DNA from: Sphingomonas suaedae
Lineage (GTDB): Bacteria > Pseudomonadota > Alphaproteobacteria > Sphingomonadales > Sphingomonadaceae
Direction of reading: 5' to 3'
NCBI RefSeq assembly: GCF_007833215.1
Contig: NZ_CP042239.1
Coordinates: 1,426,001-1,490,000, forward strand
DNA: 64,000 nt
Positions 1,466 through 51,163 of this stretch are shown piece after piece; the first letter of the stretch is position 1, and each line of letters starts with the position of its first letter. Position numbers and translations under genes: made by a program. Under the pieces are notes generated by a model. The model did not search any database and had not been told where the DNA came from. It was given only the letters and a program-made list of their open reading frames with translations.

Positions 1466-1494
1466 GACCGCGCATGGTCCAACCTCTCTATAAT
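1466..1494 (+). promoter_or_regulatory. Promoter of the flagellar-box class, for the 1523/1738 genes
   Basis: GACC at 1466-1469, 19 nt, then TATAAT at 1489-1494. This equals a -35 hexamer GACCGC with a 17-bp spacer. The -10 overlaps the -10 of the divergent promoter on the other strand. Confidence 0.6.
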
Positions 1495-1518
1495 AGAATG
1501 AATTCACCCCGTCGGGAC
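1490..1518 (-). promoter_or_regulatory. Divergent promoter of the flagellar-box class, for the FliL-like gene
   Basis: On the minus strand GTCC (1518-1515), 19 nt, then TATTAT (1495-1490). The -35-position hexamer is GTCCCG with a 17-bp spacer. It is interlocked with the plus-strand promoter at 1466-1494. Confidence 0.5.
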
Positions 1519-1522
1519 CCGA

Positions 1523-1741
1523 ATGAGCTACGATCAGAAGCCCAAACGCGCACGGATATTCGGAGCGAGCGATACGGCATCCAGCCGCGTCGTCCGCCCT
1601 GCACCGATGCCCGCCGCCAAAGGCGCTACGCATAGGCGCACAACGCCCGTGCGCCCCAGGCTGGGGACCGGGATGGTAATATTGTTTCTTGCAAGTGCGG
1701 CGATCGGTGGGGCGCTTCAGGCGTTTCTGATTCGACCATGA
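1523..1741 (+). CDS. Small membrane protein, unknown
   Basis: 72 residues: a basic, proline-rich N-terminal half, then one transmembrane helix (GTGMVILFLASAAIGGALQAFLI) ending almost at the C terminus. Its stop overlaps the start of the next gene (ATGA at 1738-1741), and it begins 29 nt after a -10 box, which supports a real, translationally coupled gene. The ribosome-binding site is weak. I do not recognise a family. Its promoter class suggests co-regulation with flagellar genes. Confidence 0.5.
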   Translation: MSYDQKPKRARIFGASDTASSRVVRPAPMPAAKGATHRRTTPVRPRLGTGMVILFLASAAIGGALQAFLIRP

Positions 1742-3498
1742 GCCGCGCGCTGCGCCACGCAAGTCTGCTCTTCGCAGGAGTGGCGACGAGCGCGCTCGCG
1801 GCGAGCGGAGGCGAACCGCAACCAACGGCTTCGACCGCCCCCGCCCGGTCTGCCCCTGCCCCGGCTGGCCCGCCCGCAGGCTCTCGGCTTCCCCCCTTTG
1901 CTGCGCAGCTCGCCGAAATGCCGCGCGCCGCAGCAGGTGAACGCCCGGCGATCGACATCCCGCTCGCTTGGTCGCTCATCGCAAAAAGCACCGCCGAAAC
2001 CCGTCAGGGCGCGCGGTGGAAGCTCGCCACCGCCTTGCTCGACAAGGCGCATGGGGCGGAGGCGTTGGGTGTGCTCGAAACGATGCGGCGCGACGATGCG
2101 GCGCTCGAACTGGTTCCGGCCTGGCGGCTGGCAACCGGGGCGGCAAGCGTGCTGATAGGACGTGACGAAGCAGCCCGCGACTGGCTCAACATTCCCGAGC
2201 TCGCCGCCGATGCGGAGGCGTGCGCCTGGCAGGTACGCGCCGGAGCGACGATAACGCCCGCGCTGCTCAAATGCGCGCTTCCCGCGATCCGCGTGCGCGC
2301 ACCGGGCGAGCGCGGCCCCTTTCTGACTGCCGCCGCCGATGGGCTGATCGAAACCGGCGATCCTGCGCGCGCGCTACGCTTTCTGTCGGCAATGCCGGAG
2401 CAGGATCCCGCCGCGAACCTGCGACGCGGCGTCGCGCTGGCCCGCTTGGGACAGCGCGACGCGGGACGCCTCAAGTTCGAGCGCGTGTTGCTCTCCGGGG
2501 CACCAAGCGAGCGCGCGGCGGCGGAACTCGAACTGATCCGCCTCGGCGTCGATGCGCGCAAGATCGGCTATCGACAGGCGAGCAAGCGGCTCGATGCGCT
2601 GATGCTGAGCTGGCGGGGAGACGCGACCGAACGCGCGGCGATCGCGCTGAAGCGCGATCTGGCGCAGCGCGTGGGCGATCGGGTCGCGGTGCTCACCGCA
2701 TCGGCGACGCTGTTCCGCTATTTCGATCTTGGCGCGGATACGCCCCGCGCGCTCGCCGCGATCCAGACGGAGCTGGCGACGCTGATCGATGACCGCAAGC
2801 GCCCGATTGCAGAGGCGGCGGGACTCTTCTGGGAATATCGCGACCTTGCCCCCACCGGCGCGGCAGGCGATCTGATGGTCACGCGCCTGTCCGACCGGCT
2901 CGCCGAGGCTGGGCTATATGCACGCGCCGCCGAACTATTGAACTATCAGATGGTCGCGCGGGCGGTCGATATCGCCAAAGGACCGCTATCGGTGCGTATC
3001 GCACGCCTGTTGTTGCGCGCGGGTAAGCCCGATCAGGCGCTTTCGGCGCTGCGGCTGAGCGATGGTCCGGCCTATCCCGACGCCATCGCCAGCGATCGGC
3101 GGCGGATGCAGGCGATCGCGACCTATCGCATGGGTCGGCGCGAGGACGCACTGGCGATGCTCGATCAGATCCCGGAATCCGGCGATCTGCGCGCCGAAAT
3201 GCTGTGGCAGGCACGCGCGTGGAAGCGCTTTGCGCAGGCCAATCGCACCCGGTTGCCGGTCAACCGCACTGCCGTGCTGCGTCAGGCGGTTGCGCTGGCG
3301 ATGCTGGGCGATGAGGCCGGACTGACCGCGCTGCATCGCGGCCAAAGCGGCGCGCTGCGCGGCACCCCCTCGGGCGCAGCGCTCGATGCACTCGCTTCTC
3401 CCGACGGTGCGAGCGACCCTGCCGCGCTCGACGCCGCGATGGCGGGCCTGGCAGATGCGGCGGTCGATGGCGACCTGCTGTTACTCAGCAACTCCTGA
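1738..3498 (+). CDS. Periplasmic helical-repeat (TPR-like) protein, possible MotC analogue
   Basis: 586 residues. A signal peptide (MSRALRHASLLFAGVATSALAASGG) is followed by a proline/alanine linker and then about 500 residues of alternating amphipathic helices, such as ALRFLSAMPEQDPAANLRRGVALARLGQRDAGRLKFERVLL and PDQALSALRLSDGPAYPDAIASDRRRMQAIATYRMGRREDALAML, which read as degenerate TPR or SEL1-like repeats. It probably acts in the periplasm as a binding scaffold. It is coupled to the small membrane protein upstream and driven by a flagellar-box promoter. Sinorhizobium pairs a periplasmic MotC with MotE; a MotE-like gene lies 1.5 kb away, so an analogous stator-associated role is possible. 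That is inference, since sequence similarity to MotC was not tested. Confidence 0.65.
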   Translation: MSRALRHASLLFAGVATSALAASGGEPQPTASTAPARSAPAPAGPPAGSRLPPFAAQLAEMPRAAAGERPAIDIPLAWSLIAKSTAETRQGARWKLATALLDKAHGAEALGVLETMRRDDAALELVPAWRLATGAASVLIGRDEAARDWLNIPELAADAEACAWQVRAGATITPALLKCALPAIRVRAPGERGPFLTAAADGLIETGDPARALRFLSAMPEQDPAANLRRGVALARLGQRDAGRLKFERVLLSGAPSERAAAELELIRLGVDARKIGYRQASKRLDALMLSWRGDATERAAIALKRDLAQRVGDRVAVLTASATLFRYFDLGADTPRALAAIQTELATLIDDRKRPIAEAAGLFWEYRDLAPTGAAGDLMVTRLSDRLAEAGLYARAAELLNYQMVARAVDIAKGPLSVRIARLLLRAGKPDQALSALRLSDGPAYPDAIASDRRRMQAIATYRMGRREDALAMLDQIPESGDLRAEMLWQARAWKRFAQANRTRLPVNRTAVLRQAVALAMLGDEAGLTALHRGQSGALRGTPSGAALDALASPDGASDPAALDAAMAGLADAAVDGDLLLLSNS

Positions 3499-3585
3499 AC
3501 CGCCAAACGCCTAGCCCAGCCTAGCGGGCACCCCTTTCCTGAACCACCCAGCGGCGCTGCCGCCGCGCGCATCTTTGCTGCGCAC

Positions 3586-3621
3586 AAAAAAGCGGTGGCA
3601 CTCCGCATGGAATGCCACCGC
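3586..3621 (-). terminator. Rho-independent terminator of the chemoreceptor gene
   Basis: A perfect 9-bp stem (3592-3600 with 3613-3621, 12-nt loop) is followed on the minus strand by six T residues (A run at 3586-3591). It lies 30 nt beyond the stop of the minus-strand receptor gene and between convergent genes. Confidence 0.8.
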
Positions 3622-3650
3622 GACAGGCGCCGGAGCGACCGGCTTGGGGA

Positions 3651-5606
3651 TCAGAATTCATCCCAGTCGTCATTGTCCCGAACCAGCGAGGGGATCGCCG
3701 CAGGTGGCAGCGGCTTGACCGGGGACTGATAGACGATCTCGCTGGGCTTGCTCGCCTTGCCCGGCTTGGTCAGCCTGGCCGGCGCAGCCTTGGCCGATCC
3801 GACGGCGCGCGCAGGCGCGGGCGCAGGCGTTGCGGGCTTGCGTACCGGCGCAGCCCGAACCACCTGGGTCGCCGCACCGGTGCGGAATGCGCCCGCACGC
3901 TGGCCAAGCACGCCGACTTCGGCATTCAGGCTGCGCGCTGCGGCCGAGGCTTCCTCGACCATCGCCGCATTTTGCTGCGTCGAATGATCCATCGTGCTGA
4001 TCGCCGACGCGATCTGCTGGATCGCCGCAGCCTGGGCCTGATTGTCCTGGGCCATTGTGCCGAGCAGTTCGTGGACGGTCGACACGTCCGCCGAAATCGC
4101 GACCAATGCACCATCGACCCGCTGGACCGCCGATACCGCGAGCTCGACATCATTCTGCGTGGTGGTGAGCTGTTCGCGCGCGCGCTTCGCCTCTTCCTCG
4201 GAACGCATGGCGAGCTGCCCGACCAGGTCGGCGACGACCGCGAAGCCGCGACCCGCTTCGCCCGCACGGCCCGCCTCGACCGCCGCGTTCATCGCGAGGA
4301 CGCGGGTCTGGAAGGCGATCTTGTCGAGCCCTTCGATCACGCTGTCGATGCCCTTGGCGCTATCGGCGACGCGGCCCATCGCGGAGACGGCCTCCTCGGC
4401 GGTGCCGCGGCCGGTGCCGACGGTGACGATCGCCTGATCGGCGCGACCGACGGTGCGGGTCGAGGCCTCTGCCCCGGCGCGCAGGCGATCGTTGATCTGC
4501 GACACGGCGGCGGAGGTTTCCTCAAGCGAGGCTGCCGCGCTTTCGGTGCGGCGGGCCAGATCTTCGGACGCCTGTTCGATCTCGCTCGATCCCGCGCCGA
4601 TCGTGCGCGCGCTGTCCATCACCGACTGGATGAGGGTGCGAAGCGATTCCACCGCGCCGTTGAAATTGGCCTTGAGACCGGCATAGCTGCCGCTGAACTC
4701 GGCATCGATTCCGCGCGACAAATCACCCTGAGCCAGCGTTTCAAGATGGTGCGAAAGCGTGTCGATCACCTGCTTCTGCTCGGCTTCGGCTGCGGCCTTG
4801 GCAGCTTCGGTACGCGCCAGTTCGCGCGCGGCGTCGCGGAAGACGAGTACGGCCTTGGCCATCTCGCCCACTTCATCACGACGATCGGTTCCCACGACAT
4901 CGATCGCGTTGTTGCCGCTCGCAAGCGTCCGCATCGTGCCCTCAAGGCCCAATAGCGGCGCGATGATCGTCCGGCGCGCGACGAAGATTCCGAACCCCAC
5001 TGCAAGGACGACACCGAGCAGGCCGATGACCAGCATCGAGGTGACAGCGCCGTTGGTCGACTCCGTCAGCGCATCGGCCTCGGCCTTCGCGACACCGGAG
5101 CGCTCCTCCGTGAAGCGGCGCAGTTCCTTGCGAATTTCCGCAGCCTTGAGGTCTGCCTGCGCCATCCCGGCGCGCGCCTCATCATTGCGGTCGGCCAGGC
5201 CGAACTTCATCGCTTCAGTTGTCAGGCGATGCAATTCGTCGAACTGCTTGATCAACACCTCGATGACCGGCGCGGTCTTGGGTTCCGCCTTCATCATATC
5301 GACCAGACGCTTGCGCGCGGTCGTATAGGCTTCGCGCTCGGCTTCCACCGCCGCGCGCCCTTCCGCGCTGCGGCCCGGATAGGCGGTGAGCTGATATCCC
5401 GAATAGGTCATTTGGAGCGCGCCCTGATAGGAGCGGGCCAGCTCGACATTGTTCGGGAGCAAGGTGTCGGACAGGTGCGAATAGCCGGCATCGACCTTGC
5501 GGATCGCGCTGGTGCCATTGAACGCGACGGCAAGCGTTACCGCGCCCAGCATCAGCATCAGCGCCGCGATCTTGTAGGCTATCTTGAGATTGGTGAAGGC
5601 TTGCAT
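3651..5606 (-). CDS. Methyl-accepting chemotaxis protein with C-terminal CheR-tether-like pentapeptide
   Basis: 651 residues. A transmembrane helix at about 12-30, a helical periplasmic sensor domain (about 35-190), a second transmembrane helix (GAVTSMLVIGLLGVVLAVGFGIFVARR), a HAMP region and the cytoplasmic signalling hairpin. The tip is FQTRVLAMNAAVEAGRAGEAGRGFAVVADLVGQLA, close to the usual IAFQTNxLALNAxVEAARAG but with R for N. The last residues are DDWDEF, which fits the x-W-x-x-F tether that CheR and CheB bind in other receptors. A proline/alanine-rich linker of about 60 residues joins the signalling domain to that tail, as in tethered receptors. It follows flgL by 77 bp and may share its transcript; a terminator ends the unit. 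The ligand is unknown. Confidence 0.92.
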   Translation of the reverse strand: MQAFTNLKIAYKIAALMLMLGAVTLAVAFNGTSAIRKVDAGYSHLSDTLLPNNVELARSYQGALQMTYSGYQLTAYPGRSAEGRAAVEAEREAYTTARKRLVDMMKAEPKTAPVIEVLIKQFDELHRLTTEAMKFGLADRNDEARAGMAQADLKAAEIRKELRRFTEERSGVAKAEADALTESTNGAVTSMLVIGLLGVVLAVGFGIFVARRTIIAPLLGLEGTMRTLASGNNAIDVVGTDRRDEVGEMAKAVLVFRDAARELARTEAAKAAAEAEQKQVIDTLSHHLETLAQGDLSRGIDAEFSGSYAGLKANFNGAVESLRTLIQSVMDSARTIGAGSSEIEQASEDLARRTESAAASLEETSAAVSQINDRLRAGAEASTRTVGRADQAIVTVGTGRGTAEEAVSAMGRVADSAKGIDSVIEGLDKIAFQTRVLAMNAAVEAGRAGEAGRGFAVVADLVGQLAMRSEEEAKRAREQLTTTQNDVELAVSAVQRVDGALVAISADVSTVHELLGTMAQDNQAQAAAIQQIASAISTMDHSTQQNAAMVEEASAAARSLNAEVGVLGQRAGAFRTGAATQVVRAAPVRKPATPAPAPARAVGSAKAAPARLTKPGKASKPSEIVYQSPVKPLPPAAIPSLVRDNDDWDEF

Positions 5607-5683
5607 GGGGGCTTTCGCTTTCTGTCTTCACGCGCCGTGCGCGTTGGTTTTCGGTGACAAATCAGGGATCGGCGTCGGAAAAG

Positions 5684-6586: not shown

Positions 6587-6597
6587 CTGCGGATTCC

Positions 6598-8703: not shown

Positions 8704-8728
8704 AAACCGTCCCCCGCCAGAAGTGCAA

Positions 8729-10080: not shown

Positions 10081-10109
10081 ATGATAGAGCGCTGCGCAGC
10101 GCGCCGGTC
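10081..10109 (-). promoter_or_regulatory. flgE promoter of the flagellar-box class
   Basis: Minus strand: GACC (10109-10106), 19 nt, TATCAT (10086-10081). The -35-position hexamer is GACCGG with a 17-bp spacer. Confidence 0.6.
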
Positions 10110-10134: not shown

Positions 10135-10149
10135 GCGGCAATTTTTTCC
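10135..10149 (+). promoter_or_regulatory. GCGGCAATTTTTTCC element between flgE and flbT
   Basis: This 15-mer is identical to the one at 42893-42907 upstream of fliF and resembles three others in the window. It lies about 10 nt upstream of the flbT -35 position and also upstream of the divergent flgE promoter. It is a candidate binding site for the FlbD-type regulator (inference). Confidence 0.5.
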
Positions 10150-10158: not shown

Positions 10159-10187
10159 GACCGCCCGCTCCCCCGGGCCTCTATGAT
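10159..10187 (+). promoter_or_regulatory. flbT-fliI-fliJ promoter of the flagellar-box class
   Basis: GACC at 10159-10162, 19 nt, TATGAT at 10182-10187. The -35-position hexamer is GACCGC with a 17-bp spacer. Confidence 0.6.
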
Positions 10188-13329: not shown

Positions 13330-13358
13330 GGCCGCCAGTCCGCAAATCATCCTATATT
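13330..13358 (+). promoter_or_regulatory. Possible promoter of the globin receptor (variant flagellar box)
   Basis: GGCC at 13330-13333, 19 nt, TATATT at 13353-13358; the hexamer is GGCCGC rather than GACCGG. ATCCTAT at 13349-13355 overlaps the -10. Confidence 0.35.
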
Positions 13359-13385: not shown

Positions 13386-14732
13386 ATGGCCGTGAGTGCC
13401 GAACTGGTTGACCGTCTCGCTTTTGCCGGTTTCTCCGATGCGCACCGCGAAGTGCTGGCGCGTTTTGCGCCGGTTCTCGACAAGGAGCTGCCCGGAATCC
13501 TCGACATATTCTACGTCAACCTGCGCCGCTGGCCCGAACTGGCGAACATGTTCAAGGACGGCGAAGCGATGCCGCGCGCCGCACGCGCCCAGGCGGCGCA
13601 TTGGCAGATGCTCTTTTCCGGCCGGTTCGACGATGCCTATGTCGAATCGGTGCAGCGTATCGGCCTGATGCACAGCAAGATCGGCCTCGATCCGCGCTGG
13701 TATATCGGGGGCTACAGCTTCATCCTGCGCCATCTGTTCGATCTTGCCGCACGTTCGGCGGGACGATCGTTGAGCCCGGCATCGGCCGCACGCACGGCGC
13801 AGCTGTGCACCGCGATCAACATGGCGGCGATGATCGACATGGACCTCGCCATCTCCTGCTATATCGACGAGAACAAGGCGACCTATGACGCGAAGCTCGC
13901 GACGCTGGCCGAAGATTTTCAGCGCCAGGTCGGCGTTCTGGTCGATCAGCTCGGTGTCGCCTCGAACGAGCTGGAGGCGAGCGCCCAGTCGCTGACCGAC
14001 CATAGCGGCGAGGCGAATACGCGGGCGATGGCGGTCGCCGCTGCCGCCGAACAGGCGAGCGCAGGCGTGCAGACCGTGGCGTCTGCCGCCGAGGAGCTGT
14101 CCGCGTCAATCCAGATGATCGCCACCCAGGTCGCCGATTCGACCCGAACCACTCAGCGTGCCGTCGCCGATGCCGAACGCACCGACCAGGTGGTCCGCGC
14201 CCTTGATGAGGCAGCGGAGCGGATCGGCACCGTTGTCGGCCTGATCGGTCAGATTGCGGGCAAGACCAACATGCTGGCGCTCAACGCATCGATCGAGGCA
14301 GCGCGGGCGGGCGAAGCCGGCAAGGCGTTCGAGGTGGTCGCGGCAGAGGTCAAGGCGCTGGCCTCCCAGACCGAGCGCATGACCGAGGATGTCGAAGGCC
14401 AGATCCGCGAGATCCAGGATGTGACGCGCCAGGCGGTGTCGGGCCTCACCACCATCGCGGCGACGATCGGACAGGTGGCGGAGATCAGCGATTCGATCGC
14501 CGGAGCGGTAAATCAGCAGAACAGCGCGACCGCCGAGATCAGCCGCAACATCCAGCAGACCGCCCAGGCCGCGCATGAGGTTTCGGCCAATATCGTCGGG
14601 GTCAGCCACGCCTCTGAAGCGACCGGCTCGGCCGCGAGCCAGGTCTTTTCCTCCGCAAGCACCCTGTCGGGTCAGGCGAGCAGCCTCTCCACCCAGGTGC
14701 ATCGCTTTGTCACCCAGGTCCGTGCGGCCTGA
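13386..14732 (+). CDS. Globin-coupled methyl-accepting chemotaxis protein (aerotaxis type)
   Basis: 448 residues with no transmembrane segment. Residues 1-165 match the globin-coupled-sensor domain ([33 protein letters not shown], then [32 protein letters not shown]); H96 in [10 protein letters not shown] is the expected proximal haem ligand. The rest is an MCP signalling domain with tip [52 protein letters not shown]. It should sense oxygen or another gas in the cytoplasm and drive CheA, like HemAT proteins. It has no tether pentapeptide. It opens a small island between flagellar operons. Confidence 0.92.
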
Positions 14733-14867: not shown

Positions 14868-15893
14868 ATGTCGAATACCACCGCTGCACTCGAGGCCGCC
14901 GTTGCAACCGTCATTGCGAACCTGCCGAAGGATGGCGAGGCGCAGACCAACCGCCAGCGCGTCCATGGCGACCGCGCCTTCGCCCATGTGCTGAAGATCC
15001 TGGCGCCGCGCATCCGCCACTTCATCCGCCAATATGGCCTTGCCGGCCATTGGGACGACGCCGAGCAGTGCTGCGCGATCGGTGTTCACCGCGCGATCCA
15101 GGCCTATGATTCAGAACGCGCCCAATTCACGACCTTCGTCAACTGGCAGCTGCGCGGCGAGCTTCAGAGCCTGCGCTTCCGGCTGATGACCGATCAGCGC
15201 CCATCGGCGAAGAAAGTCGAGGCGAGCACCGTCTCGCTCCACGCCGTCACGAGCGGCGCGGACGGCGAGAGCAACACGCTGGAAAGCATGATCGAGGACG
15301 AGTTCGCGCTCGACCGTACCGAAGCCTGTGCCGGCGACCATCTCGCGGTGAAGACGCGCGAGGCGTTGCTCGATGCCTATGTCGATCATCTGCGTGGCGT
15401 CGCGATGGAACAGATGAAGCGGCGCGCCCGCTCCAACCGTTCGGTCCAGGTCCTCGACCCGCGCCTCCCGCGGTTCCGGGCCGGGGCGGCAATCATCGAT
15501 CCCGCCGAAATCGCCGAACTGGAGGAAAGGCTGGAGGCCCAGCGTCAGATCGTCGCCCGCCGCCTGTCGGACGACATGCCGGACGAATCCGAACTCGATC
15601 CGCAGGAGCGCGAACGGCAGCGCCAGGTCGCCAAGCGTGCCGCGAAGACGATCGCCGAGATCGCCGCCAACGATCCGCGCTTCGGCGGCATGTTCGAGCG
15701 CCCGCGTCCCAAGGCGCGCCGTCGCGTGACCGACAAGCCGACCCCGATCGTCACCGTTCTGCCCGACCACAGCGCCCCGCACAACCAGCTGAGCCGCGTG
15801 ATCGCGGTTGCTGCGGCACCGCTGGCGACAGTCGAGGCCGAGGATCAGGGCGAGCAGCTGATGGCGATGCCCCGCGGCGTGCGTTCGCACTGA
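14868..15893 (+). CDS. Sigma-70 region-2-like protein lacking region 4
   Basis: 341 residues, GAGGGGA upstream of the ATG. Residues about 35-110 read as sigma regions 2.1-2.4: FAHVLKILAPRIRHFIRQYGLAGHWDDAEQCCAIGVHRAIQAYDSERAQFTTFVNWQLRGELQSLRFRLMTDQR. I cannot find a region 4 helix-turn-helix downstream; instead there is a long charged segment (EELEERLEAQRQIVARRLSDDMPDESELDPQERERQRQVAKRAAKTIAEIAANDPRF) and a basic stretch RPRPKARRRVTDKP. It could recognise a -10 element without a normal -35 contact, or act as a sigma-like regulator. No anti-sigma gene of a known type is adjacent. The downstream 164-residue gene begins 10 nt later, implying an operon. Confidence 0.7.
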   Translation: MSNTTAALEAAVATVIANLPKDGEAQTNRQRVHGDRAFAHVLKILAPRIRHFIRQYGLAGHWDDAEQCCAIGVHRAIQAYDSERAQFTTFVNWQLRGELQSLRFRLMTDQRPSAKKVEASTVSLHAVTSGADGESNTLESMIEDEFALDRTEACAGDHLAVKTREALLDAYVDHLRGVAMEQMKRRARSNRSVQVLDPRLPRFRAGAAIIDPAEIAELEERLEAQRQIVARRLSDDMPDESELDPQERERQRQVAKRAAKTIAEIAANDPRFGGMFERPRPKARRRVTDKPTPIVTVLPDHSAPHNQLSRVIAVAAAPLATVEAEDQGEQLMAMPRGVRSH

Positions 15894-17657: not shown

Positions 17658-20321
17658 GTGACAGGGGCGCGAAACTGGACGCCGGAGGGATCGACACGCG
17701 GTAGGGTCGCCACCCTCTGCTTCGCCGTTGCGGCGGGTCTTTCGATCGCCGGGTTGCTCGGCTGGTCGTTCGCGATTTCGCCGCTACGGTCGCCGATCCC
17801 GGGCTTTGCTGCGGCGTGGCCGCCCAATCTCCTGTTGGTTCTGGTCCTGGCGACCACGCTCATCCTACTCCCCCGCGCCGATCCTGAAGGTCCGGGGCGA
17901 CGGATCGGCACCGCGTTCGTCATCACCATCCTCATCGCGGCACTGGTGTTGCTCAGCGTAACGTTGCTGGCCCGGACCGGCGGCAGTCCGGTCTCCTGCC
18001 TGTTGATCTTCCTTCTTGCGGTCAGCGCGCTGATGCGCATCCGTTCGGGTCGCGAAGGCGCACCGGTCGCCGCGATGGTCGCAGCGCTGGTCATCAGCTT
18101 CGCGCTGCTGCTGCTGGCGGGCCAGTTGCTTGCTGCGGAAGTTCGGGGCGCCTCGGTCCAGCCCTGGCACATACCGGTCATCACCAATGTCGCGGAACTG
18201 GTGCTGGGCGTCGGACTGTTGCTCCAGGCGACACAACATGCGCTTCAGGGCTATCGCCCCAAGAGGGACGAGAACTGGCCGATCGCCCTCCGCGCGGTCC
18301 CCGCCCTGATGGTCGCGCCTGCACTGGTACTCGCGATCGAACTGCTCGTGTTCGACCAGCGTGGTTTCCCGGCGACCGCTGAAATCTGGGGGATGCTGGC
18401 CAACACGCTGATCGTCGGGTCGGTGCTGCTATGGTCGATCGCGCGCCTGTCGCGCCAGCGCTCGACGCTTCAGCTCTATGCTCAGTCGCTCGATGCCGAG
18501 CCGATCGCCTTTATCGATGCCGACGGACGGATCGTCCACTGGTCACGCGGATGCGCGGCGCTGTACGGCTATGGTGCGGAGGAGGCGATCGGTCAGGTCA
18601 AGCATCTGCTGCTCTCAAGCCGCGCTGCCGCCGATGACTCTGCAGGGTGGAGTCCCACGGCGCACGAAGGCAGTTTCCAGATCGTCGAAACCGCGAAGGA
18701 CGGCCGTGAGATTCACGTCCTGGAACGTCGCCAGCGGATCGACGACGATGGCGACACGCCCGTCACCGTGCTTGCAATGACCGATCTTGAACCACTTATG
18801 CGCGCGCAGGTCGCCCGCGCGGAGAGTGACGAACGACTGCTGCTGGCGGCGCAAGCGCACCGGATCGGTATTTTCGAATGGGATGTGGAGAGCGGAAAGC
18901 TCTCCTGGTTCGCCGATACGGAACCGCTTCTGGGGCTGCCTGTCGGCACTCTCGCTGACTATGAAAGTTGGGCGGCGCTCATTTTTCCGGAGGATCTCGC
19001 ACTGATTCTCAAGCGGATGGAAGCAACTGTACTCCGCCGAGCGGATCAGTTCTCATTCTTTTACCGCCTGTCTCTCGAAGATGGTGAAATCCGGGCCATT
19101 GAGGGCTCCGCGCGGTGCTTTTATGATGCGACGGGTGCGCTGGTGCGTACGCTGGGCGTCAATATCGACGTGACCGATCGTGTCGAGCAGACAGCACAAC
19201 TCGCGGCCCGGGAGGCCCAGCTTCTCTCCATTCTCCAAACCGTGCCCAGCGCGATGCTGGTGATCGATGTGCGCGGCCACGTTATGAGCTTCAGCCCAGC
19301 TGCGGAAAGACTTTTCGGCTATGCGGCCAGCGATATCATCGGCAAGAATGTATCCATGCTAATGGCCGACGAACATCGTTTGCGGCACGATGGCTATCTG
19401 GAACGCTATCTGCGTACTGGAGAGCGGCGCATCATCGGCATCCCGCGCATTCTGACGGCCCGTCATGCGGACGGCCGCGAAATACCCATCGAGTTGCATG
19501 TGGGCGAGGCCGTCTATGGCGACACCCGCGCTTTTACGGGTTTCATCACGGATTTGACGGAGCGGCTTCAGGGCGAAGAGCGGCTTCAGCAGTTGAGCAA
19601 CGAGCTAACCCAGATTGGCCGGATCAACGCGATGGGTGAGCTGGCCGCAGCGCTGGCGCACGAACTCAACCAACCATTGGCCGCAATTACAAATCACGTC
19701 GCCACCGCCGAGGTTATCCTGAACGATGGCGGCGATCGTGAACGGATTTCGCGTCAGCTCCAATCGACCCGTGAACAATCGTTGCGCGCGGGGGAGATCA
19801 TCCGCCGCCTGCGCGCATTTGTTTCGCGGCGCGAGGTCGATTCGCGGATGGAGTCGGTCGAGACGACCATTCGGGAGGCAAGCGCGCTCGTCCTGGTCGG
19901 GCATCAACGGCTCGATCTCACCGTGGATTATGAACTCGCGCACGACGCTGTCCGCATGTTTGCCGACAAGATCCAAATTCAACAGGTGCTGCTGAATCTG
20001 ATGCGCAATGCGCTGGAAGCGCTTGCTGGGGTTCCCGCAGAAGGCCGCCGGATCGCCATCGGTACGCGAAGGATCGACGACGACTGGATCGAATTTTCGG
20101 TGAGCGACAACGGGCCGGGACTCGCCGAACCGCTTCTTGAGCAGATGTTTCTCCCATTCAATTCTTCCAAAGGAGAGGGCAGTATGGGGATCGGACTGTT
20201 GATTTGCCGGCGCATCATCGAAGCGCACGGAGGGACAATGACCGCGCAGAACAATGAAGGGGGCGGCGCGACATTCCGGTTCACCGTCCCTGCAATAGAG
20301 CCGGGACTGGGAGAGGAATGA
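17658..20321 (+). CDS. FixL-like membrane sensor histidine kinase, haem-ligand His replaced
   Basis: 887 residues. About eight transmembrane helices fill residues 17-265, followed by three PAS-type domains (about 275-380, 395-505 and 515-640). The last aligns closely with the haem PAS of FixL (MADEHRLRHDGYLERYLRTGERRIIGIPRILTARHADGREIPIELHVGEAVYGDTRAFTGFITDLTE), but the position of the proximal histidine (His200 in Bradyrhizobium FixL) is R591. The conserved arginine of IIGIGR is kept (R597). The kinase core has H668 in AALAHELNQPLAAI, the N box QQVLLNLMRNALEAL, and DNGPGLAE and GSMGIGLLICRRIIEAHGG. It probably phosphorylates the adjacent FixJ-like regulator (4-nt overlap), but not by haem-based oxygen sensing. 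Confidence 0.88.
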   Translation: MTGARNWTPEGSTRGRVATLCFAVAAGLSIAGLLGWSFAISPLRSPIPGFAAAWPPNLLLVLVLATTLILLPRADPEGPGRRIGTAFVITILIAALVLLSVTLLARTGGSPVSCLLIFLLAVSALMRIRSGREGAPVAAMVAALVISFALLLLAGQLLAAEVRGASVQPWHIPVITNVAELVLGVGLLLQATQHALQGYRPKRDENWPIALRAVPALMVAPALVLAIELLVFDQRGFPATAEIWGMLANTLIVGSVLLWSIARLSRQRSTLQLYAQSLDAEPIAFIDADGRIVHWSRGCAALYGYGAEEAIGQVKHLLLSSRAAADDSAGWSPTAHEGSFQIVETAKDGREIHVLERRQRIDDDGDTPVTVLAMTDLEPLMRAQVARAESDERLLLAAQAHRIGIFEWDVESGKLSWFADTEPLLGLPVGTLADYESWAALIFPEDLALILKRMEATVLRRADQFSFFYRLSLEDGEIRAIEGSARCFYDATGALVRTLGVNIDVTDRVEQTAQLAAREAQLLSILQTVPSAMLVIDVRGHVMSFSPAAERLFGYAASDIIGKNVSMLMADEHRLRHDGYLERYLRTGERRIIGIPRILTARHADGREIPIELHVGEAVYGDTRAFTGFITDLTERLQGEERLQQLSNELTQIGRINAMGELAAALAHELNQPLAAITNHVATAEVILNDGGDRERISRQLQSTREQSLRAGEIIRRLRAFVSRREVDSRMESVETTIREASALVLVGHQRLDLTVDYELAHDAVRMFADKIQIQQVLLNLMRNALEALAGVPAEGRRIAIGTRRIDDDWIEFSVSDNGPGLAEPLLEQMFLPFNSSKGEGSMGIGLLICRRIIEAHGGTMTAQNNEGGGATFRFTVPAIEPGLGEE

Positions 20322-20935
20322 TGCAGAGCGTCTATATTGTCGATGACGATCAGGCTGTCCGGCAATCGCTGCACGGGCTGTTGTCGGAACGCCCCAATCT
20401 CGTGATCCGGGTCTTCGCGTCGGGCGAGTCCTTCCTGGAGAATATCGAGGCCAGCGACAGTGGCGTCCTGTTGCTCGACTATCAGATGCCGGGTCGCAAC
20501 GGGATCGAGGTGATGCGCGAGTTGCAGTCGCGAAAGGCTACGTTCCTGACGATCATGCTGACGGGCCAGGGCGATATCTCGCTGGCGGTGCAGGCGATGA
20601 AGGCGGGGGCCACGGATTTCCTCGAGAAACCCTATGATCCTCACCACCTTCTCAATCTACTCGACGAAGCCTTTGCCCGGTTCAGCGAGACCAGCGGCAT
20701 CGCCGAGCGGCGGGAACAGGCGCGGGCGCGGATCGCCCGCCTGTCGCCGCGCGAGCATGAGGTGCTGATGGGTCTGATCGAAGGGCGCCCCAACAAGGTG
20801 ATCGCCCACCAGCTCGATCTGTCGCCCCGCACGGTGGAAATCTATCGCGCGAACATGATGGAGAAGCTCGACGTCGGCAGCCTGTCCGAAGCGCTCCGCC
20901 TCGCTTATGCCGCGGAGGTTGCCGCCCCGGTCTGA
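20318..20935 (+). CDS. FixJ-like response regulator
   Basis: 205 residues. Receiver domain with D9-D10, phosphoacceptor D54 (LLLDYQMPG), Thr in MLTGQGD and Lys in FLEKPYDP; linker at about 125-140; LuxR-type HTH (LSPREHEVLMGLIEGRPNKVIAHQLDLSPRTVEIYRANMMEKLDVGSLSEALRLA). This is the FixJ/TtrR/StyR arrangement. Its start overlaps the kinase stop by 4 nt. Target genes are not evident; the location between two motility operons hints at control of motility, which is inference only. Confidence 0.92.
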   Translation: MMQSVYIVDDDQAVRQSLHGLLSERPNLVIRVFASGESFLENIEASDSGVLLLDYQMPGRNGIEVMRELQSRKATFLTIMLTGQGDISLAVQAMKAGATDFLEKPYDPHHLLNLLDEAFARFSETSGIAERREQARARIARLSPREHEVLMGLIEGRPNKVIAHQLDLSPRTVEIYRANMMEKLDVGSLSEALRLAYAAEVAAPV

Positions 20936-21328: not shown

Positions 21329-21357
21329 ATTCTAGATGGAAGCCGCGCCGTCCGGTC
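21329..21357 (-). promoter_or_regulatory. flaF promoter of the flagellar-box class
   Basis: Minus strand: GACC (21357-21354), 19 nt, TAGAAT (21334-21329); hexamer GACCGG, 17-bp spacer. Confidence 0.6.
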
Positions 21358-21404: not shown

Positions 21405-21433
21405 GTCCGGCACCCCCGCCCCCGCCCTATAAT
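21405..21433 (+). promoter_or_regulatory. motA-che operon promoter of the flagellar-box class
   Basis: GTCC at 21405-21408, 19 nt, TATAAT at 21428-21433; hexamer GTCCGG, 17-bp spacer. It is the only promoter I can see for the 9.3-kb operon that follows. Confidence 0.6.
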
Positions 21434-32394: not shown

Positions 32395-32423
32395 TTTATA
32401 GGGGGCAGAATTTGCCGCCGGTC
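32395..32423 (-). promoter_or_regulatory. fliN-fliO-fliP promoter of the flagellar-box class
   Basis: Minus strand: GACC (32423-32420), 19 nt, TATAAA (32400-32395); hexamer GACCGG, 17-bp spacer. The spacer contains a GCGGCAAATTCTGCC element. Confidence 0.6.
32404..32418 (-). promoter_or_regulatory. GCGGCAAATTCTGCC element inside the fliN promoter
   Basis: The core is GGCA-N5-TGCC. It sits between the -35 position and the -10, a place where a bound protein would normally repress. Candidate site for the FlbD-type regulator (inference). Confidence 0.45.
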
Positions 32424-32424
32424 C

Positions 32425-32452
32425 GACCGGCCCGGAAAATCTTGCCTATAAG
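32425..32452 (+). promoter_or_regulatory. flgC operon promoter (flagellar box, one base shorter)
   Basis: GACC at 32425-32428, 18 nt, TATAAG at 32447-32452; hexamer GACCGG with a 16-bp spacer. It is back-to-back with the fliN promoter, sharing GGTCCGACC. Confidence 0.45.
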
Positions 32453-32462
32453 ATTTGTGTCG

Positions 32463-32477
32463 GCGGCAATTCCTGCC
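32463..32477 (+). promoter_or_regulatory. GCGGCAATTCCTGCC element near the flgC transcription start
   Basis: GGCA-N5-TGCC core, 11 nt downstream of the -10, 22 nt before the flgC ATG. Candidate regulator site. Confidence 0.45.
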
Positions 32478-35864: not shown

Positions 35865-35893
35865 GACCGGAACGGCCTTTCTCTTTCTATAAG
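35865..35893 (+). promoter_or_regulatory. flgI operon promoter of the flagellar-box class
   Basis: GACC at 35865-35868, 19 nt, TATAAG at 35888-35893; hexamer GACCGG, 17-bp spacer. A weaker divergent box (CTCC, 19 nt, TATAGA) for fliX overlaps on the other strand. Confidence 0.6.
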
Positions 35894-38369: not shown

Positions 38370-38373
38370 GATG

Positions 38374-41053: not shown

Positions 41054-41082
41054 GACCGACAACCCCCTTCTGCGTCCATAAT
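41054..41082 (+). promoter_or_regulatory. fliG-fliH promoter of the flagellar-box class
   Basis: GACC at 41054-41057, 19 nt, CATAAT at 41077-41082; hexamer GACCGA, 17-bp spacer. Interlocked with a divergent promoter. Confidence 0.5.
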
Positions 41083-41106
41083 AGAGGGTGCGCGCACCTT
41101 ACCGAC
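41078..41106 (-). promoter_or_regulatory. Possible divergent promoter for the FlaEY-like gene
   Basis: Minus strand: GTCG (41106-41103), 19 nt, TATTAT (41083-41078). One mismatch to the box. The back-to-back -10 overlap is the same as at 1489-1495. Confidence 0.4.
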
Positions 41107-42892: not shown

Positions 42893-42944
42893 GCGGCAAT
42901 TTTTTCCTACCGGCAAAACCTGCCGCCCGCACGGCATCTATAAT
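42893..42944 (+). promoter_or_regulatory. fliF promoter region with two GCGGCAA-type elements
   Basis: GCGGCAATTTTTTCC at 42893-42907 (identical to 10135-10149) and CCGGCAAAACCTGCC at 42910-42924, then TATAAT at 42939-42944. The GACC box is not at the usual distance here; the second element overlaps the -35 position instead, so this promoter may depend on the regulator bound there. Confidence 0.5.
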
Positions 42945-42988
42945 TCAGTCATGGGGCAGTTCGCCCCGGATCGCTGATAGGGTGCGTC

Positions 42989-44982: not shown

Positions 44983-44983
44983 C

Positions 44984-46270
44984 ATGCAGATCCGCCTGAT
45001 GATCGTCGGCAGCAGCGGCGGCGCCTTTGGCGAAGCCGCGCAGATGGCCCGCGACCTGGGCGCCGAAGTGATGCTCGCCCACACCCCCGTGGCGGCACTC
45101 GAACAGTTGCGCGAAACCGGAGCGGGCCTTGTCATGATCGACGTCGAAAGCGACGTAGCTGCCTTTATGAAGGACCTTCAGGCCGAGCGCTTCGCCGTGC
45201 CGGTGCTGGCGTGCGGTATCGACGCACCCGCCGACCGCGCAGTCGCAGCGGTGCGCGCAGGGGCGAAGGACTATATCCCCCTGCCCCCCGATCGCGACCT
45301 GATCGCAGCCGCGATTGCGCAACTCGCACAGATCGACACGGGCTCGCTGATCGGCGATGATCCGGCATTCCTGCGCGCGCTCGACTTTGCCCGTGCGATG
45401 GCCCCGGCCCATGCCCCGATCCTGATCACCGGCGAGCGCGGCAGCGGCAAGGAGCGGGTGGCCCATGCGACCCATGCAGCGTCAGGCCGCCACGGTTTCA
45501 TCACCGTGGAGTGCGCCGGCGTTGCGCCCAATGTGCTGGAGTCCGAATTGTTCGGGCATGAGGTTGGCGCGTTCGACGGCGCGCGCGCCACGCGGCGGGG
45601 CGCCTTCGTCACCGCGCGCGGCGGCACCTTGTTCCTGCGCGACATCGATCGCCTGCCCGCCCCGCTCCAGTTGCGTGTGCTCGAAGCGATGGCCGAAGCC
45701 GACGCGCCGAATGTCATCGCCAGCACCACCCGCGATCTCACCCTGTTCGTCGAGGCCGGCGCGTTTCGCAGCGACCTGCTCGCCCGTTTTGCACTGGCGA
45801 CGGTCGCGCTGCCGCCGCTGCGCAACCGCGGCGGCGACATCCGCCTGCTCGCCGCGTCCTTTGCCATCCGCTTCGCCGCGATGCAGGGACAACCCTCGCC
45901 GTTGATCGACCCGGCCGCCGAACGACTGCTCGCGCATTATGACTGGCCCGGCAACATCGCCGAGCTTCAGGATGCGATGCACCGTGCCGTGCTGTTGGCG
46001 CCTGACGGCTATATCGGCCCGGAAGCGATCGTGCTGGCCGACGGGTCGCGCATCACCGCTACCGCCCCTGCTACGGGCCGCCCGGTCATCGCCTCGCTGG
46101 TCGGCCAGACAGTCGAGGAGGTCGAGCGCGCGCTGATTCTGGAGACGCTCGAGCGGTGCCAGGGCAACCGCACCTCCGCCTCGCAGATCCTGGGTATTTC
46201 AGTGCGCACCATGCGCAACAAGCTGAAGGCATTTGTCGAGGCGGGCATCGCCGTCGCCCCGGCGGCCTGA
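44984..46270 (+). CDS. flbD: FlbD-type AAA+ flagellar regulator with altered catalytic motifs
   Basis: 428 residues. An N-terminal receiver-like domain (about 1-115) lacks the acidic cluster and phospho-aspartate pattern of a normal receiver, as is known for FlbD. The AAA+ domain keeps Walker A (GERGSGKE, 150-157), FRSDLLARF and LPPLRNRGGDIRLL. However, GAFTGA is GAFDGA (D198), the Walker B pair that should be D-E reads R219-D220 (GGTLFLRDID), and the sensor II arginine is A326 (WPGNIAEL). The Fis-type HTH at the end (VERALILETLERCQGNRTSASQILGISVRTMRNKLK) is intact. It should bind DNA, but ATP-driven opening of sigma-54 promoters looks doubtful. Confidence 0.9.
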   Translation: MQIRLMIVGSSGGAFGEAAQMARDLGAEVMLAHTPVAALEQLRETGAGLVMIDVESDVAAFMKDLQAERFAVPVLACGIDAPADRAVAAVRAGAKDYIPLPPDRDLIAAAIAQLAQIDTGSLIGDDPAFLRALDFARAMAPAHAPILITGERGSGKERVAHATHAASGRHGFITVECAGVAPNVLESELFGHEVGAFDGARATRRGAFVTARGGTLFLRDIDRLPAPLQLRVLEAMAEADAPNVIASTTRDLTLFVEAGAFRSDLLARFALATVALPPLRNRGGDIRLLAASFAIRFAAMQGQPSPLIDPAAERLLAHYDWPGNIAELQDAMHRAVLLAPDGYIGPEAIVLADGSRITATAPATGRPVIASLVGQTVEEVERALILETLERCQGNRTSASQILGISVRTMRNKLKAFVEAGIAVAPAA

Positions 46271-46286
46271 GGGAGACTGAACGATC

Positions 46287-48368: not shown

Positions 48369-48371
48369 TCG

Positions 48372-50453
48372 ATGCGACCGGAGTCTCCATCGGGCACCTA
48401 TGAAGCGATCATGGTGCCGTTCCTCCCGCCAACTCCCGCGCCGGGTTTCGCCGGTACGGGCCAGTTCCCTTCGGGACGCCAGCAGCCGATATCGGGGCTG
48501 CCCGGATTTGCGACATTGCTGGGCAGCGCCGCGCCGATCCTGCCGGTCGGAACGCCCGAAGCGCTGCCCGATGCCCAGCCGGTGTCGCCGGGCCTTGCCC
48601 CCGCGCTGCTGGTCGCAGCCAATGAGGACGCGGCGCCGCCGATCGACCCAGCACCCTTGACCGTCGCAGTCGAGCCGGAGGCTCCCGCTCCGACAGTGTC
48701 CGCGCCAGTGCCCGCCCCCCCTCCGGGAGAGGCAGCCGTCGCAGCGGCGACGCCCGATGTCGCGCCGCCCTCGGCTGCACCCGTTCAGCGCGGTGCACCC
48801 AAGCCCCCGGTCGTCGATGCTGCGCCCGCCAGCCCGGCTCCAGTCACCCAGGATACAGGCGTCCTATCGCCTGAACCGGTCACGCCGGACCGTGCGACGG
48901 CCACCGTAGAGACTGCCGAAGAGACTGCCGAAGAGACTGCCGAAGAGACTGCCGACGAACCGACCGCCGAACCCCGCGCGTCCGATGCTGAGTCCGAGCT
49001 GGATACGGCGGTCGCGCTGCGCGATCCGCTGGTCCCCGCTCCCGTCTCGTCGCCCGAAAGTGCGCGCCCTGCCCCTTGGGACGCCGGGCCGACCGATGCG
49101 CCAATCTCGGACGTCCCCGCACGACCGGTACACCCTGCCCCGGCCGACAAGCCTTCGCCGCAGCAGCCGCCCGTCGACACGGATTTGGACATGCCTGCAC
49201 GACCGGCACGGCCCGCTCCGAACGGCAAGACTCCGCCGCAACAGCCACCCATCGACACGGATTTGGACATGCCTGCACGACCGGCACGGTCCGCTCCGAA
49301 CGGCAAGACTCCGCCGCAACAGCCACCCATCGACACGGAGATGGACGCGCCGGGACGCCCATATACCGTCGCCCCGAAGGCAGTGCCCATCGCCACCGCA
49401 CCGGCACGACCGGACGCACAGCCATCTGAAATCGCGCCCGGTGCCGGCCACGCATTGCGTTTCACCGACGCGCAATCGATCGAACCCGCTCCTGCTGCGG
49501 CACCCTCGGTCGAACCTGTCTTCACGGTCGATGAAAAGGCGGTCGCGGTCGAACGCGAGGCCGCCCCCCCGGGCGACCCGGTGGCTACGCCGGCGAGGAC
49601 CGCTCTGCCGGATCAGGCCGTTATCGACGCGCCGCCTGTGCCGGACGATGCGATGACAGCCAGCATTCCCCGTGATCTACCCTCCGCCCCGGCGCCCCGC
49701 GAGGGCGATCCGCCGGTCGCCACCGCAGCCGCCGCCGCCACCGCCACCGCCGCGCCACAGGATGTCGCGGCATTGGGCGACACGCCAGGCCATCCCGAAT
49801 CCGCCGCGCTCCGCGTCGCCGACCCGCAGCCCGTACAGCGCGCACCCGTTGAGAGCGCAGGCAGCACCACTGCCGATAGCGGCGAAAGCGGGCGCCAGGC
49901 GGCTGTGGCGACCGCCGTCGCCCCTGCGCCGGTCGCCGCCGCCCAAAGCGCGCCCGTCGCATTCGGCCGGCTTGTCGCGGAGATCGATGCCACCGCCCCC
50001 GACCAGTTCGACGCGCCGCGCGCGCGTGCCGCCGCGATCGGCGAGGATGTCGCCGTCGCGATCGTCCGCCATGCCGAGAGCGGCGCCGACGACACGCTCA
50101 TCATCCGGCTCGATCCAGGCGATCTGGGACGAATCGAGGTGCGGCTGAAGGTCGAGGAGGGTCAGCGCCTGTCCGCCGAACTGACCGCGGACCAGCCCGC
50201 CACGCTCGACCTGCTTCGCCGCGATTCGGACAGCCTCAGCCGCGCGCTCAATGATGCGGGCTTCCGTACCGAGGGGCAGAGCCTGCGCTTCGACGGGCGC
50301 GGCACCGGCCAGGGCGGCGAACAGGGCTTTGGCCAGCAGGAGCGCCGCACCGTCCACCGCGCCTATCTGGGCGAGGACGATCCCGCCCCGCAATCCGCAT
50401 CCGCCTATTCCCCGCAGGTCCGCAGCGCGGGCCGCATCGACCTGTTCGCCTGA
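48372..50453 (+). CDS. fliK: FliK, hook-length control protein
   Basis: 693 residues, starting 3 nt after flhA. The first 550 residues are a Pro/Ala-rich, low-complexity ruler with tandem repeats. The C-terminal domain (EDVAVAIVRHAESGADDTLIIRLDPGDLGRIEVRLKVEEGQRLSAELTADQPATLDLLRRDSDSLSRALNDAGFRTEGQSLRF) is the FliK switch domain that acts on FlhB. The repeats (see separate entries) could change ruler length by slippage. Confidence 0.92.
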   Translation: MRPESPSGTYEAIMVPFLPPTPAPGFAGTGQFPSGRQQPISGLPGFATLLGSAAPILPVGTPEALPDAQPVSPGLAPALLVAANEDAAPPIDPAPLTVAVEPEAPAPTVSAPVPAPPPGEAAVAAATPDVAPPSAAPVQRGAPKPPVVDAAPASPAPVTQDTGVLSPEPVTPDRATATVETAEETAEETAEETADEPTAEPRASDAESELDTAVALRDPLVPAPVSSPESARPAPWDAGPTDAPISDVPARPVHPAPADKPSPQQPPVDTDLDMPARPARPAPNGKTPPQQPPIDTDLDMPARPARSAPNGKTPPQQPPIDTEMDAPGRPYTVAPKAVPIATAPARPDAQPSEIAPGAGHALRFTDAQSIEPAPAAAPSVEPVFTVDEKAVAVEREAAPPGDPVATPARTALPDQAVIDAPPVPDDAMTASIPRDLPSAPAPREGDPPVATAAAAATATAAPQDVAALGDTPGHPESAALRVADPQPVQRAPVESAGSTTADSGESGRQAAVATAVAPAPVAAAQSAPVAFGRLVAEIDATAPDQFDAPRARAAAIGEDVAVAIVRHAESGADDTLIIRLDPGDLGRIEVRLKVEEGQRLSAELTADQPATLDLLRRDSDSLSRALNDAGFRTEGQSLRFDGRGTGQGGEQGFGQQERRTVHRAYLGEDDPAPQSASAYSPQVRSAGRIDLFA
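48909..48956 (+). repeat. Four 12-bp tandem repeats in fliK
   Basis: GAGACTGCCGAA repeated four times, the last with C in place of the final A; encodes ETAE units. In frame, so gain or loss of copies keeps the protein intact. Confidence 0.9.
49173..49340 (+). repeat. 78-bp tandem repeats in fliK
   Basis: Units begin at 49173, 49251 and 49329 (the last partial). The first two are nearly identical and encode a 26-residue block of the type DTDLDMPARPARPAPNGKTPPQQPP. In frame. Confidence 0.85.
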
Positions 50454-50464
50454 AGGAGCCGCTC

Positions 50465-51121
50465 ATGGCCGTCGATACCGTCACCGGCACCAATAATGCC
50501 CCCACCACCCAGTCCAACGCGCTGTCGAAGCTCGCCACCGACTCGACCATGTTTCTCAAACTGCTGACCACGCAGATGCAGAACCAGGACCCGCTCGATC
50601 CGATGGACACGTCGGAATATACCGCGCAGCTGGTCCAATTCTCGCAGGTCGAACAGTCGATTCAACAGAACACGACGTTGAAATCGATCCTGTCGGCGCT
50701 GTCCTCGGACGGGCTGCTCAGCGCTGCCCCTTCGGTCGGCAAGGTCGCGACCTTCGCCAGCGCCGATGCCGGGCTGACCGCGGACTCGCCCGCCCAATGG
50801 TCTTATGTCGCCGAACGTTCGACGGGCAAGGTTACCGCGACCATCCTCGATTCCAGTGGCAAGGCCGTTCACACGATCGATCGGACCGATGCGACCGGTG
50901 ACATCAGCTGGGACGGCAAGGTGGCCGATGGCAGCACCGCGCCACCGGGCATCTACAAGCTGTCGATCACCGCGACCGATGCGGCAGGCGGCGGCGTTCC
51001 GGTCGGTATATTCGCGCGGGGCATGGTGCGCGAAGTTACCCAGGACGCCTCCGGCATGGCCTTCATGGTCAACGGCGTGACCTATGGGTCGAACATGCTC
51101 GTCGGCCTTGCCACGGAATAA
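50465..51121 (+). CDS. flgD: FlgD, hook-cap protein
   Basis: 218 residues. The N-terminal motif TDSTMFLKLLTTQMQNQDPLDPMDTSEYTAQLVQFSQVEQSIQQN is diagnostic, followed by the tudor/Fn3-like domains (ATILDSSGKAVHTIDRTDATGDISWDGKVADGSTAPPGIYKLSITA). It caps the growing hook. Last gene of the fliF-flgD operon, 11 nt after fliK. Confidence 0.96.
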   Translation: MAVDTVTGTNNAPTTQSNALSKLATDSTMFLKLLTTQMQNQDPLDPMDTSEYTAQLVQFSQVEQSIQQNTTLKSILSALSSDGLLSAAPSVGKVATFASADAGLTADSPAQWSYVAERSTGKVTATILDSSGKAVHTIDRTDATGDISWDGKVADGSTAPPGIYKLSITATDAAGGGVPVGIFARGMVREVTQDASGMAFMVNGVTYGSNMLVGLATE

Positions 51122-51134
51122 TCGGTCCCGGCGG

Positions 51135-51163
51135 GACCGGGCCCCCACCCTGCCTTCTATAGT
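51135..51163 (+). promoter_or_regulatory. Promoter of the flagellar-box class before the GGDEF-EAL gene
   Basis: GACC at 51135-51138, 19 nt, TATAGT at 51158-51163; hexamer GACCGG, 17-bp spacer. The box also forms the right half of a small GGTCCC/GGGACC hairpin (51124-51138) just after flgD. Confidence 0.5.

Follow-up and report, generated by a model that had tools for sequence, protein, structure and literature searches.

A shared core promoter of flagellar and motility genes in Sphingomonas suaedae, and a divergent sigma-70-family protein as its candidate reader

The 64,000-nt stretch of Sphingomonas suaedae DNA analyzed here (NZ_CP042239.1, positions 1,426,001 to 1,490,000 of the forward strand, hereafter the window; genome label G000) raises the question of which protein reads the promoters of its flagellar and motility genes. 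The original prediction had listed ten promoter-like sites in which G(A/T)CC, written GWCC below, lies 19 nt ahead of a TATAAT-like hexamer. We found all ten on the strands and at the coordinates it gave. The −35 hexamer reads GACCGG in five, GACCGC in two, and GACCGA, GTCCGG, and GTCCCG in one each, with the claimed 17-bp spacing throughout. The well-supported result is a promoter class; its probable reader is encoded by a sigma-70-family gene within the same window.

The ten sites begin with a divergent pair, GACCGC-N17-TATAAT at 1466..1494 (+) and GTCCCG-N17-TATTAT at 1490..1518 (−). The latter precedes gene 1030-1482, and the former precedes gene 1738 and a 72-aa open reading frame (ORF), which is the gene previously numbered 1523, though its start lies at 1522. 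Sites found by motif scan and seen again in relatives stand before flgE (GACCGG-N17-TATCAT, 10081..10109, −), flbT (GACCGC-N17-TATGAT, 10159..10187, +), flaF (GACCGG-N17-TAGAAT, 21329..21357, −), motA (GTCCGG-N17-TATAAT, 21405..21433, +), and fliG (GACCGA-N17-CATAAT, 41054..41082, +). The motif scan also placed sites before fliN (GACCGG-N17-TATAAA, 32395..32423, −), flgI (GACCGG-N17-TATAAG, 35865..35893, +), and a GGDEF-EAL gene (GACCGG-N17-TATAGT, 51135..51163, +). Family searches bore out the identities of all eight named neighbors; FliX, also named as a neighbor of a near match, was not recognized among the family searches of window genes.

Scanning the window with up to one mismatch returned exactly these ten sites, and with up to two mismatches returned 37 matches against 17.2 expected, a count reached in none of 100 shuffles. 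Across the whole genome, the pattern GWCCG-N17-YTATAAT with up to one mismatch gave 31 matches, compared with 14 for the same pattern reversed. Ten of the 31 fell inside the 62 kb of flagellar DNA at 1.4156-1.4772 Mb, comprising nine of the ten window sites and one site before a receptor gene next to a flagellin gene. The 21 matches beyond this region included 12 inside predicted ORFs, eight outside them, and one without a locus, a division made by a gene finder that also placed genuine flagellar sites inside ORFs. One of these 21, at 312272, precedes a receptor gene.

We then scored sites with a matrix built from the ten window sites, using as background 680 kb sampled elsewhere in the genome on both strands. 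At 17-bp spacing, no background site reached 16 bits (top score, 15.8). Allowing 16- or 18-bp spacing was unspecific, since nine background matches then reached at least 16 bits, with a maximum of 18.5. Two flagellar sites exceeded that maximum: the predicted near match before flgC, which is present as GACCGG-N16-TATAAG at 32425..32452 (+; 19.7 bits), and a 20.7-bit site ahead of fliL's divergent neighbor, a rod-protein gene of the FlgE/F/G family by family search that we read as flgF. The near match before the globin receptor gene also exists (GGCCGC-N17-TATATT, 13330..13358, +), but is weak at 10.3 bits. An additional promoter-like site, GACCGG-N17-TATGAA, scored 17.1 bits before fliK (48376..48404, +; gene identified by family). 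The contrasting TTGACA-N17-TATATC described for rpoB was found at 53494, upstream of that gene; this promoter too has TCC ahead of its −10. The motif was enriched in the flagellar region and specific against the sampled background, and the class as such is well supported, though individual members of the set may be wrong.

Genes left out of motif building gave the same picture. Among 10 genes with a methyl-accepting chemotaxis protein (MCP) signaling domain, three had upstream matches of at least 16 bits (16.4, 19.5, and 21.6), while the protoglobin receptor gene had its 10.3-bit match and the remaining six scored below 6 bits. All three high-scoring receptor genes lie outside the window, and two of them, near 0.31 and 1.82 Mb, are also clear of the flagellar region. 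A 14.9-bit match, GACCGA-N17-CAAAAT, precedes the flagellin gene at 1.4154 Mb. These receptor and flagellin matches, set against no strong match in the background, uphold the proposal of a motility regulon and add to it, as the fliK site, the three receptor genes, and the flagellin gene were absent from the original prediction.

To place the promoters in context, we examined relatives recovered by a FliI scan, which gave 80 loci. Thirteen of these were sphingomonads with the same gene order, making 14 genomes with that of the window; G001 is Stakelama and G008 is Sphingomonas echinoides. At the orthologous promoters present in each locus (those of flgE, flbT, flaF, motA, 1738/1030, fliG, and fliF), TYC-TATAAT or a close variant forms the −10, and the distance from −10 to gene is nearly constant for most genes across the 13 relatives. 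One promoter list required YYC before the hexamer together with a crude gene-finder filter and another required YC, so the C is imposed in those lists. Orthologous promoters are also non-independent, and Fisher values overstate significance. GWCC stood exactly 17 bp from the −10 at 10 of 21 sites in the window genome and Stakelama. As a common element, then, GACCGG-N17-TATAAT held up in part: the −10 with its leading C is shared across relatives, whereas the −35 hexamer occurs often in just some of the genomes. The fliF promoter of the window (42916..42944, +), found by window scan and in relatives, itself has TATAAT without GWCC at 17-bp spacing.

Several of these promoters are paired back to back. 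The divergent promoters at 1466/1518 and at fliL/flgF (17779-17785 of stretch L122) each share one palindromic −10, CTATAATAG, and a similar −10 overlap joins the fliG promoter to its partner on the other strand (GTCGGT-N17-TATTAT, 41078..41106, −; 12.1 bits; pair at 41054-41106). Several relatives retain the shared −10, as CTATAATAG or close to it, between the corresponding gene pairs, including at 1466/1518. Bidirectional promoters with a symmetric −10 are described for E. coli in the accessible part of one report (PMC12825309). The cases here resemble them in having a symmetric −10 common to divergent promoters; unlike them, as far as that part goes, they belong to one gene cluster and keep the same gene pairs in several relatives.

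The window contains a candidate reader. Gene 14868..15893 (+) encodes a 341-aa protein that, judged by its sequence, is a divergent member of the sigma-70 family and a candidate flagellar sigma factor. Orthologues occur in the flagellar clusters of all 13 relatives at 50-68% identity, hence in 14 of 14 clusters. Sigma70_r2 was found in all 14 members at E ≤0.1 (best, 2.4e-6) and Sigma70_r4 in eight at the same threshold, region 4 being undetected in six. One sigma-70 model matched 13 of 14 members, and a PDB profile search at E ≤0.01 matched five RpoS sequences only, mainly via region 4. The models of group 3 factors in NCBIfam also matched, weakly: FliA/WhiG in 10 members, SigB/SigF/SigG in 11, and RpoH in eight. 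For the FliA/WhiG equivalog TIGR02479, the best E was 2.8e-7, the family fell short of the 189.6-bit cut-off, and the window member gave no match at E ≤0.01. Like group 3 factors, the protein has region 2 followed by region 4 where both are found, lies among flagellar genes, and in some genomes is encoded by a gene with a promoter of the class itself. It is unlike them in its long linker and tail and in the members where region 4 was undetected, and unlike group 3 FliA in that 12 of the 14 genomes also encode a distinct FliA-type protein.

As the gene of a sigma factor that reads the motif might itself carry it, we examined the promoters of 29 sigma loci. Three reached at least 16 bits: G150 (GACCGG-N17-TATAAG, 22.5 bits), G119 (GCCCGG-N17-TATAAT, 20.5 bits), and Stakelama (GACCGG-N17-TATGGT, 16.2 bits). 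The same score was reached by none of 555 upstream regions of the window genome (maximum, 13.3) and none of 200 from other genomes (maximum, 11.3), with control genes taken from a crude finder that missed the G119 sigma gene. Neither G150 nor G119 had an FlbT match. The presence of the same promoter before these sigma genes suggests that they may be autoregulated there. The promoter of flbT gave a second link: a YC-TATAAT-like −10 precedes flbT in every one of the 14 sigma-bearing genomes (at 35-40 nt in 13), compared with 3 of 30 FlbT loci without the sigma gene, all from other families of the order. Two of those three control matches come from L269 and L277, which are shorter and whose offset is unsure, and flbT may not be first in its operon in the control families. 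Both results are correlations, yet they come from places that did not define the motif.

FlbD, the usual flagellar activator, has also changed in these sphingomonads. The window copy (44984..46270, +), identified by family search, aligns to sigma-54 activators of known structure but reads GAFDGA where they have GAFTGA, and LFLRD where they have the Walker B LFLDE. The GAFTGA threonine is lost and the Walker B aspartate replaced by arginine in all 10 sphingomonad copies, which represent nine genomes, one having two copies, and include a partial G013 copy with its receiver end in another frame; the threonine and the DE pair are kept in 12 of 12 copies from other alphaproteobacteria. Four further genomes (G002, G005, G006, and G011) matched only in the helix-turn-helix (HTH) region between fliF and flhA, with an apparent N-terminal remnant in three and no AAA+ domain found by Pfam, so that FlbD in some genomes appears reduced to little more than its DNA-binding domain. 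The FlbD proteins of stretches L219, L222, L225, and L226 are very short (about 107-154 aa in the segments taken), and HTH domains were the only ones recognized in them. Two such flagellar clusters are present in Sphingomonas echinoides, and both carry an FlbD of their own (L213 and L215). The G012 stretches L228-L230 gave no flagellar matches, and G012 was left out of the FlbD counts.

The Fis-type HTH of FlbD, in contrast, is highly conserved in sphingomonads and outgroups, and the sphingomonad gene keeps its position between fliF and flhA. Palindromes of the form GGCAA-N3-TTGCC, which we take to be FlbD-type sites by analogy with the Caulobacter ftr consensus, occur nine times in the window with up to one mismatch, against 2.06 expected. 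Six stand at three promoter regions: GGCAATTTTTTCC between the flgE and flbT promoters (10137..10149), three between fliN and flgC (starting at 32404, 32434, and 32465; 32404..32477), and two upstream of or over the −35 of the fliF promoter (starting at 42895 and 42912; 42895..42924). Paired sites at fliF also occur in G001 and G008. Across the 14 genomes, 38 of 156 promoter-like sites have an FlbD-type palindrome, mostly lying some 39 or 19 nt ahead of the −10 hexamer (35 of 43 centers at −40 to −36 or −22 to −18). Because the sigma-54-contact loop and Walker B aspartate, or the AAA+ domain, are lost while the DNA-binding domain and its sites are kept, FlbD is probably now a conventional regulator.

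The explanation that we consider probable is that the sites serve as the core promoters of a single motility regulon, most likely read by the 14868-15893 protein with RNA polymerase, and that FlbD helps at part of them. The promoter would consist of GWCCG(G), a 17-nt spacer ending in YC, and TATAAT. Recognition of the TYC-TATAAT −10 would fall to the conserved region 2 of the protein, and that of the variable −35 to its variable C-terminal part. FlbD would serve as an ordinary activator or repressor at flgE/flbT, fliN, fliF, and fliL, no longer acting via sigma-54. The original prediction had implied an alternative sigma factor or an activator; the sigma-70-family gene in the window supports the direction of that claim, and its reading of the sites is the predicted part. 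The sigma-like gene, the FlbD changes, and the FlbD-type sites had not been part of it.

Several observations weigh against assigning the promoters to this protein. The window member is a weak family match (Sigma70_r2 E 0.0015; 18.7 bits, below the Pfam cut-off of 24), and the Sigma70_r4 search did not detect region 4 in it. The window's own sigma locus scored only 4.3 bits, and most of the 29 own promoters were likewise low, the three given above being the strong matches. In the 12 genomes other than those of the window and Stakelama, GWCC at 17 bp occurred at only 15 of 135 sites, a modest excess over other offsets (mean, 1.3; maximum, 8). Furthermore, where region 4 is intact the −35 is weaker, contrary to what one would simply expect, and the best conserved part there is the CC at −21/−20. 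Finally, 12 of 16 genomes with a sigma homologue lack an FlbT match, and six of these (G044, G117, G119, G129, G153, and G206) had no match to a window flagellar structural gene in stretches of up to 19 kb on either side.

The relation between region 4 and the −35 did not yield a usable rule. A rule that loss of region 4 goes with GWCC gave 15/34 versus 1/28 for a fixed promoter set and 16/57 versus 9/99 for all promoter-like sites, in an odd direction and with a region-4 grouping made after looking, by reading the alignment; we set it aside. An earlier grouping of four genomes had given 14/21 versus 2/41. On the FliI tree, the GWCC-rich genomes fall in two pairs and form no single supported clade.

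The wider distribution of the sigma-like gene was surveyed in 197 Sphingomonadales genomes, where it occurred in 16, all of the window's family, and an FlbT match in 61. Both occurred together only in G000, G109, G175, and G181, with G175 below the FlbT cut-off. In G109, the FlbT-like gene adjoins the sigma homologue, and G181 has a full flagellar neighborhood. Near the sigma homologue, G129 has neighbor g12375, and G044 and G206 have generic response regulators. Sigma homologues also lie near a DUF445 membrane protein gene in L245, L248, L252, and L256, with an FlbT-like neighbor in G109 and G175. One comparison obtained no frame for 5 of 15 sigma loci (L243, L248, L252, L254, and L256). Since homologues occur without flagellar genes nearby, the protein is found beyond flagellar clusters as well.

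Among other explanations, the one that survives best, though we consider it unlikely, is that RpoD reads the promoters, a strong TATAAT offsetting the missing TTGACA and some activator sitting on the GWCCG box, while the 14868 protein acts elsewhere. TATAAT at normal spacing fits this, as does the TCC before the rpoB −10. All 14 genomes have RpoD-like matches, which score about 106-110 bits against the FliA model and lie in frames of at least 678 aa. The FlbD-type sites near −39 and −19 resemble direct contacts with a sigma-70-type polymerase. In sampled DNA, five of nine tRNA genes have TTGAC upstream by eye together with poor −10s, so the two classes look complementary; a housekeeping scan for TTGAC close to a TANNNT gave no match. 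Against RpoD, a C before TATAAT is not general, preceding only 11 of 61 exact TATAAT sequences in the 680 kb background, which also disposes of C-TATAAT as a general local feature. RpoD would leave the same promoter at sigma-like genes elsewhere unexplained, and no activator candidate fits. The LuxR-type response regulator at 20318, which has matches in 12 of 13 relatives, was rejected: G004, with GACC at flgE and flbT, has no match at E ≤1e-30. CtrA was rejected too, as the window and L121-L123 (124 kb) hold no full TTAA-N7-TTAA; half sites fall outside that count, and TTAACC occurs near fliG in four relatives. RpoH has CCTATAT as its −10, and 47 of 48 sites with up to one mismatch to TATAAT have A where that sequence does not.

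Classical Caulobacter-type control, with FlbD driving sigma-54 promoters and the listed sites having an incidental or secondary role, is very unlikely. RpoN is present in 14 of 14 genomes, the DNA-binding domain and sites of FlbD are conserved, and this model is assumed for Sphingomonas sp. WG, as far as the accessible text of that paper goes (PMC8921679). The original prediction's view that the sites are not sigma-54 promoters is supported by the damaged or truncated FlbD; scans for sigma-54 sites do not discriminate. TGGCNC-N5-TTGC occurred 25 times in the window against 26.3 expected, which is chance level. A related pattern gave 14 against 5.7 across 238 kb of non-coding flagellar DNA from sphingomonads, a count that includes overlapping stretches twice, and only 3 against 1.4 in outgroups with intact FlbD, so the scan is a poor test and does not separate the groups.

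Also very unlikely is that FliA (sigma-28) from elsewhere in the genome reads the sites with an altered −35 specificity. FliA recognizes TAAA-N15-GCCGATAA, which differs from the class described here, though its −10 likewise has C before the ATAA core. The window genome does encode FliA, at 190.4 bits just over the cut-off; the gene, at 3.17 Mb, adjoins an FlhA-like gene and has two flagellin genes in its vicinity, and the surrounding 3.14-3.20 Mb (L007, L013, L015, and L124-L126) is probably a second flagellar set. No 17-bp-spaced match of at least 14 bits was found in the 60 kb around FliA and its flagellins. Eleven of 13 relatives have a full-length or nearly full-length FliA-type match, eight above the cut-off. 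FliA was not found in Stakelama or G007, for neither of which genome completeness is given; both use the promoters, Stakelama with GACCGG sites, and both have the sigma-like gene in their flagellar cluster. On these grounds FliA was set aside as the reader, in agreement with the original prediction that the pattern is not sigma-28. Least probable of all is a set of chance matches selected by eye: although the earlier reader selected on GWCC and TATAAT-like hexamers are common, the set as a whole passed genome-wide and sampled background tests and recurred at independent genes.

Around the sigma-like gene, the protoglobin-type chemoreceptor gene (13386-14732) lies directly upstream, and a PAS histidine kinase and the LuxR-type response regulator (17658-20935) lie between the sigma-like gene and flaF. 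The 72-aa ORF (1522-1740) begins MSYDQKPKRARI, has a hydrophobic C-terminus, and runs at its end into the beginning of the TPR gene (1738); similar short ORFs occur in most relatives examined.

Caulobacter FlbD is known as an ftr-binding activator of sigma-54 promoters, in the portions of the two reports available (PMC3930126, PMC3096577). Sphingomonad FlbD shares with it, as there described, the gene position between fliF and flhA, the Fis-type HTH, and palindromic sites at the fliF promoter, and differs in lacking either GAFTGA and the Walker B aspartate or the entire AAA+ domain. According to the part of another report that was accessible, NtrC of Rhodobacter capsulatus and Caulobacter has lost GAFTGA and acts on sigma-70 promoters, and Caulobacter FlbD retains the motif (PMC10274813). 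The loop loss in sphingomonad FlbD parallels that in these NtrC proteins and in VpsR, with sigma-70-type action presumed here; unlike the cases in that part of the report, it is FlbD itself that lost GAFTGA, and in four genomes the whole AAA+ domain as well. Among the matches listed in a literature search that left subscription journals mostly uncovered, there was no description of these sphingomonad FlbD losses or of this candidate flagellar sigma factor.

Flagellar control, a model for ordered gene expression, is usually described as based on sigma-28 or sigma-54, and the sphingomonad cascade was called unclear in 2022 in the accessible text of one paper (PMC8921679). It is possible, and we put this forward tentatively, that a sigma factor other than FliA runs the flagellar genes of sphingomonads and replaced sigma-54, that FlbD was reduced to a conventional regulator, and that in several lineages the sigma factor persists with no flagellar cluster beside it, controlling something else. 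In the 14 genomes compared, the sigma-54 step seems to have given way to another although the DNA sites of its activator remain, which would show how a regulatory layer can be rewired; one candidate gene and more than a dozen promoters are now named.

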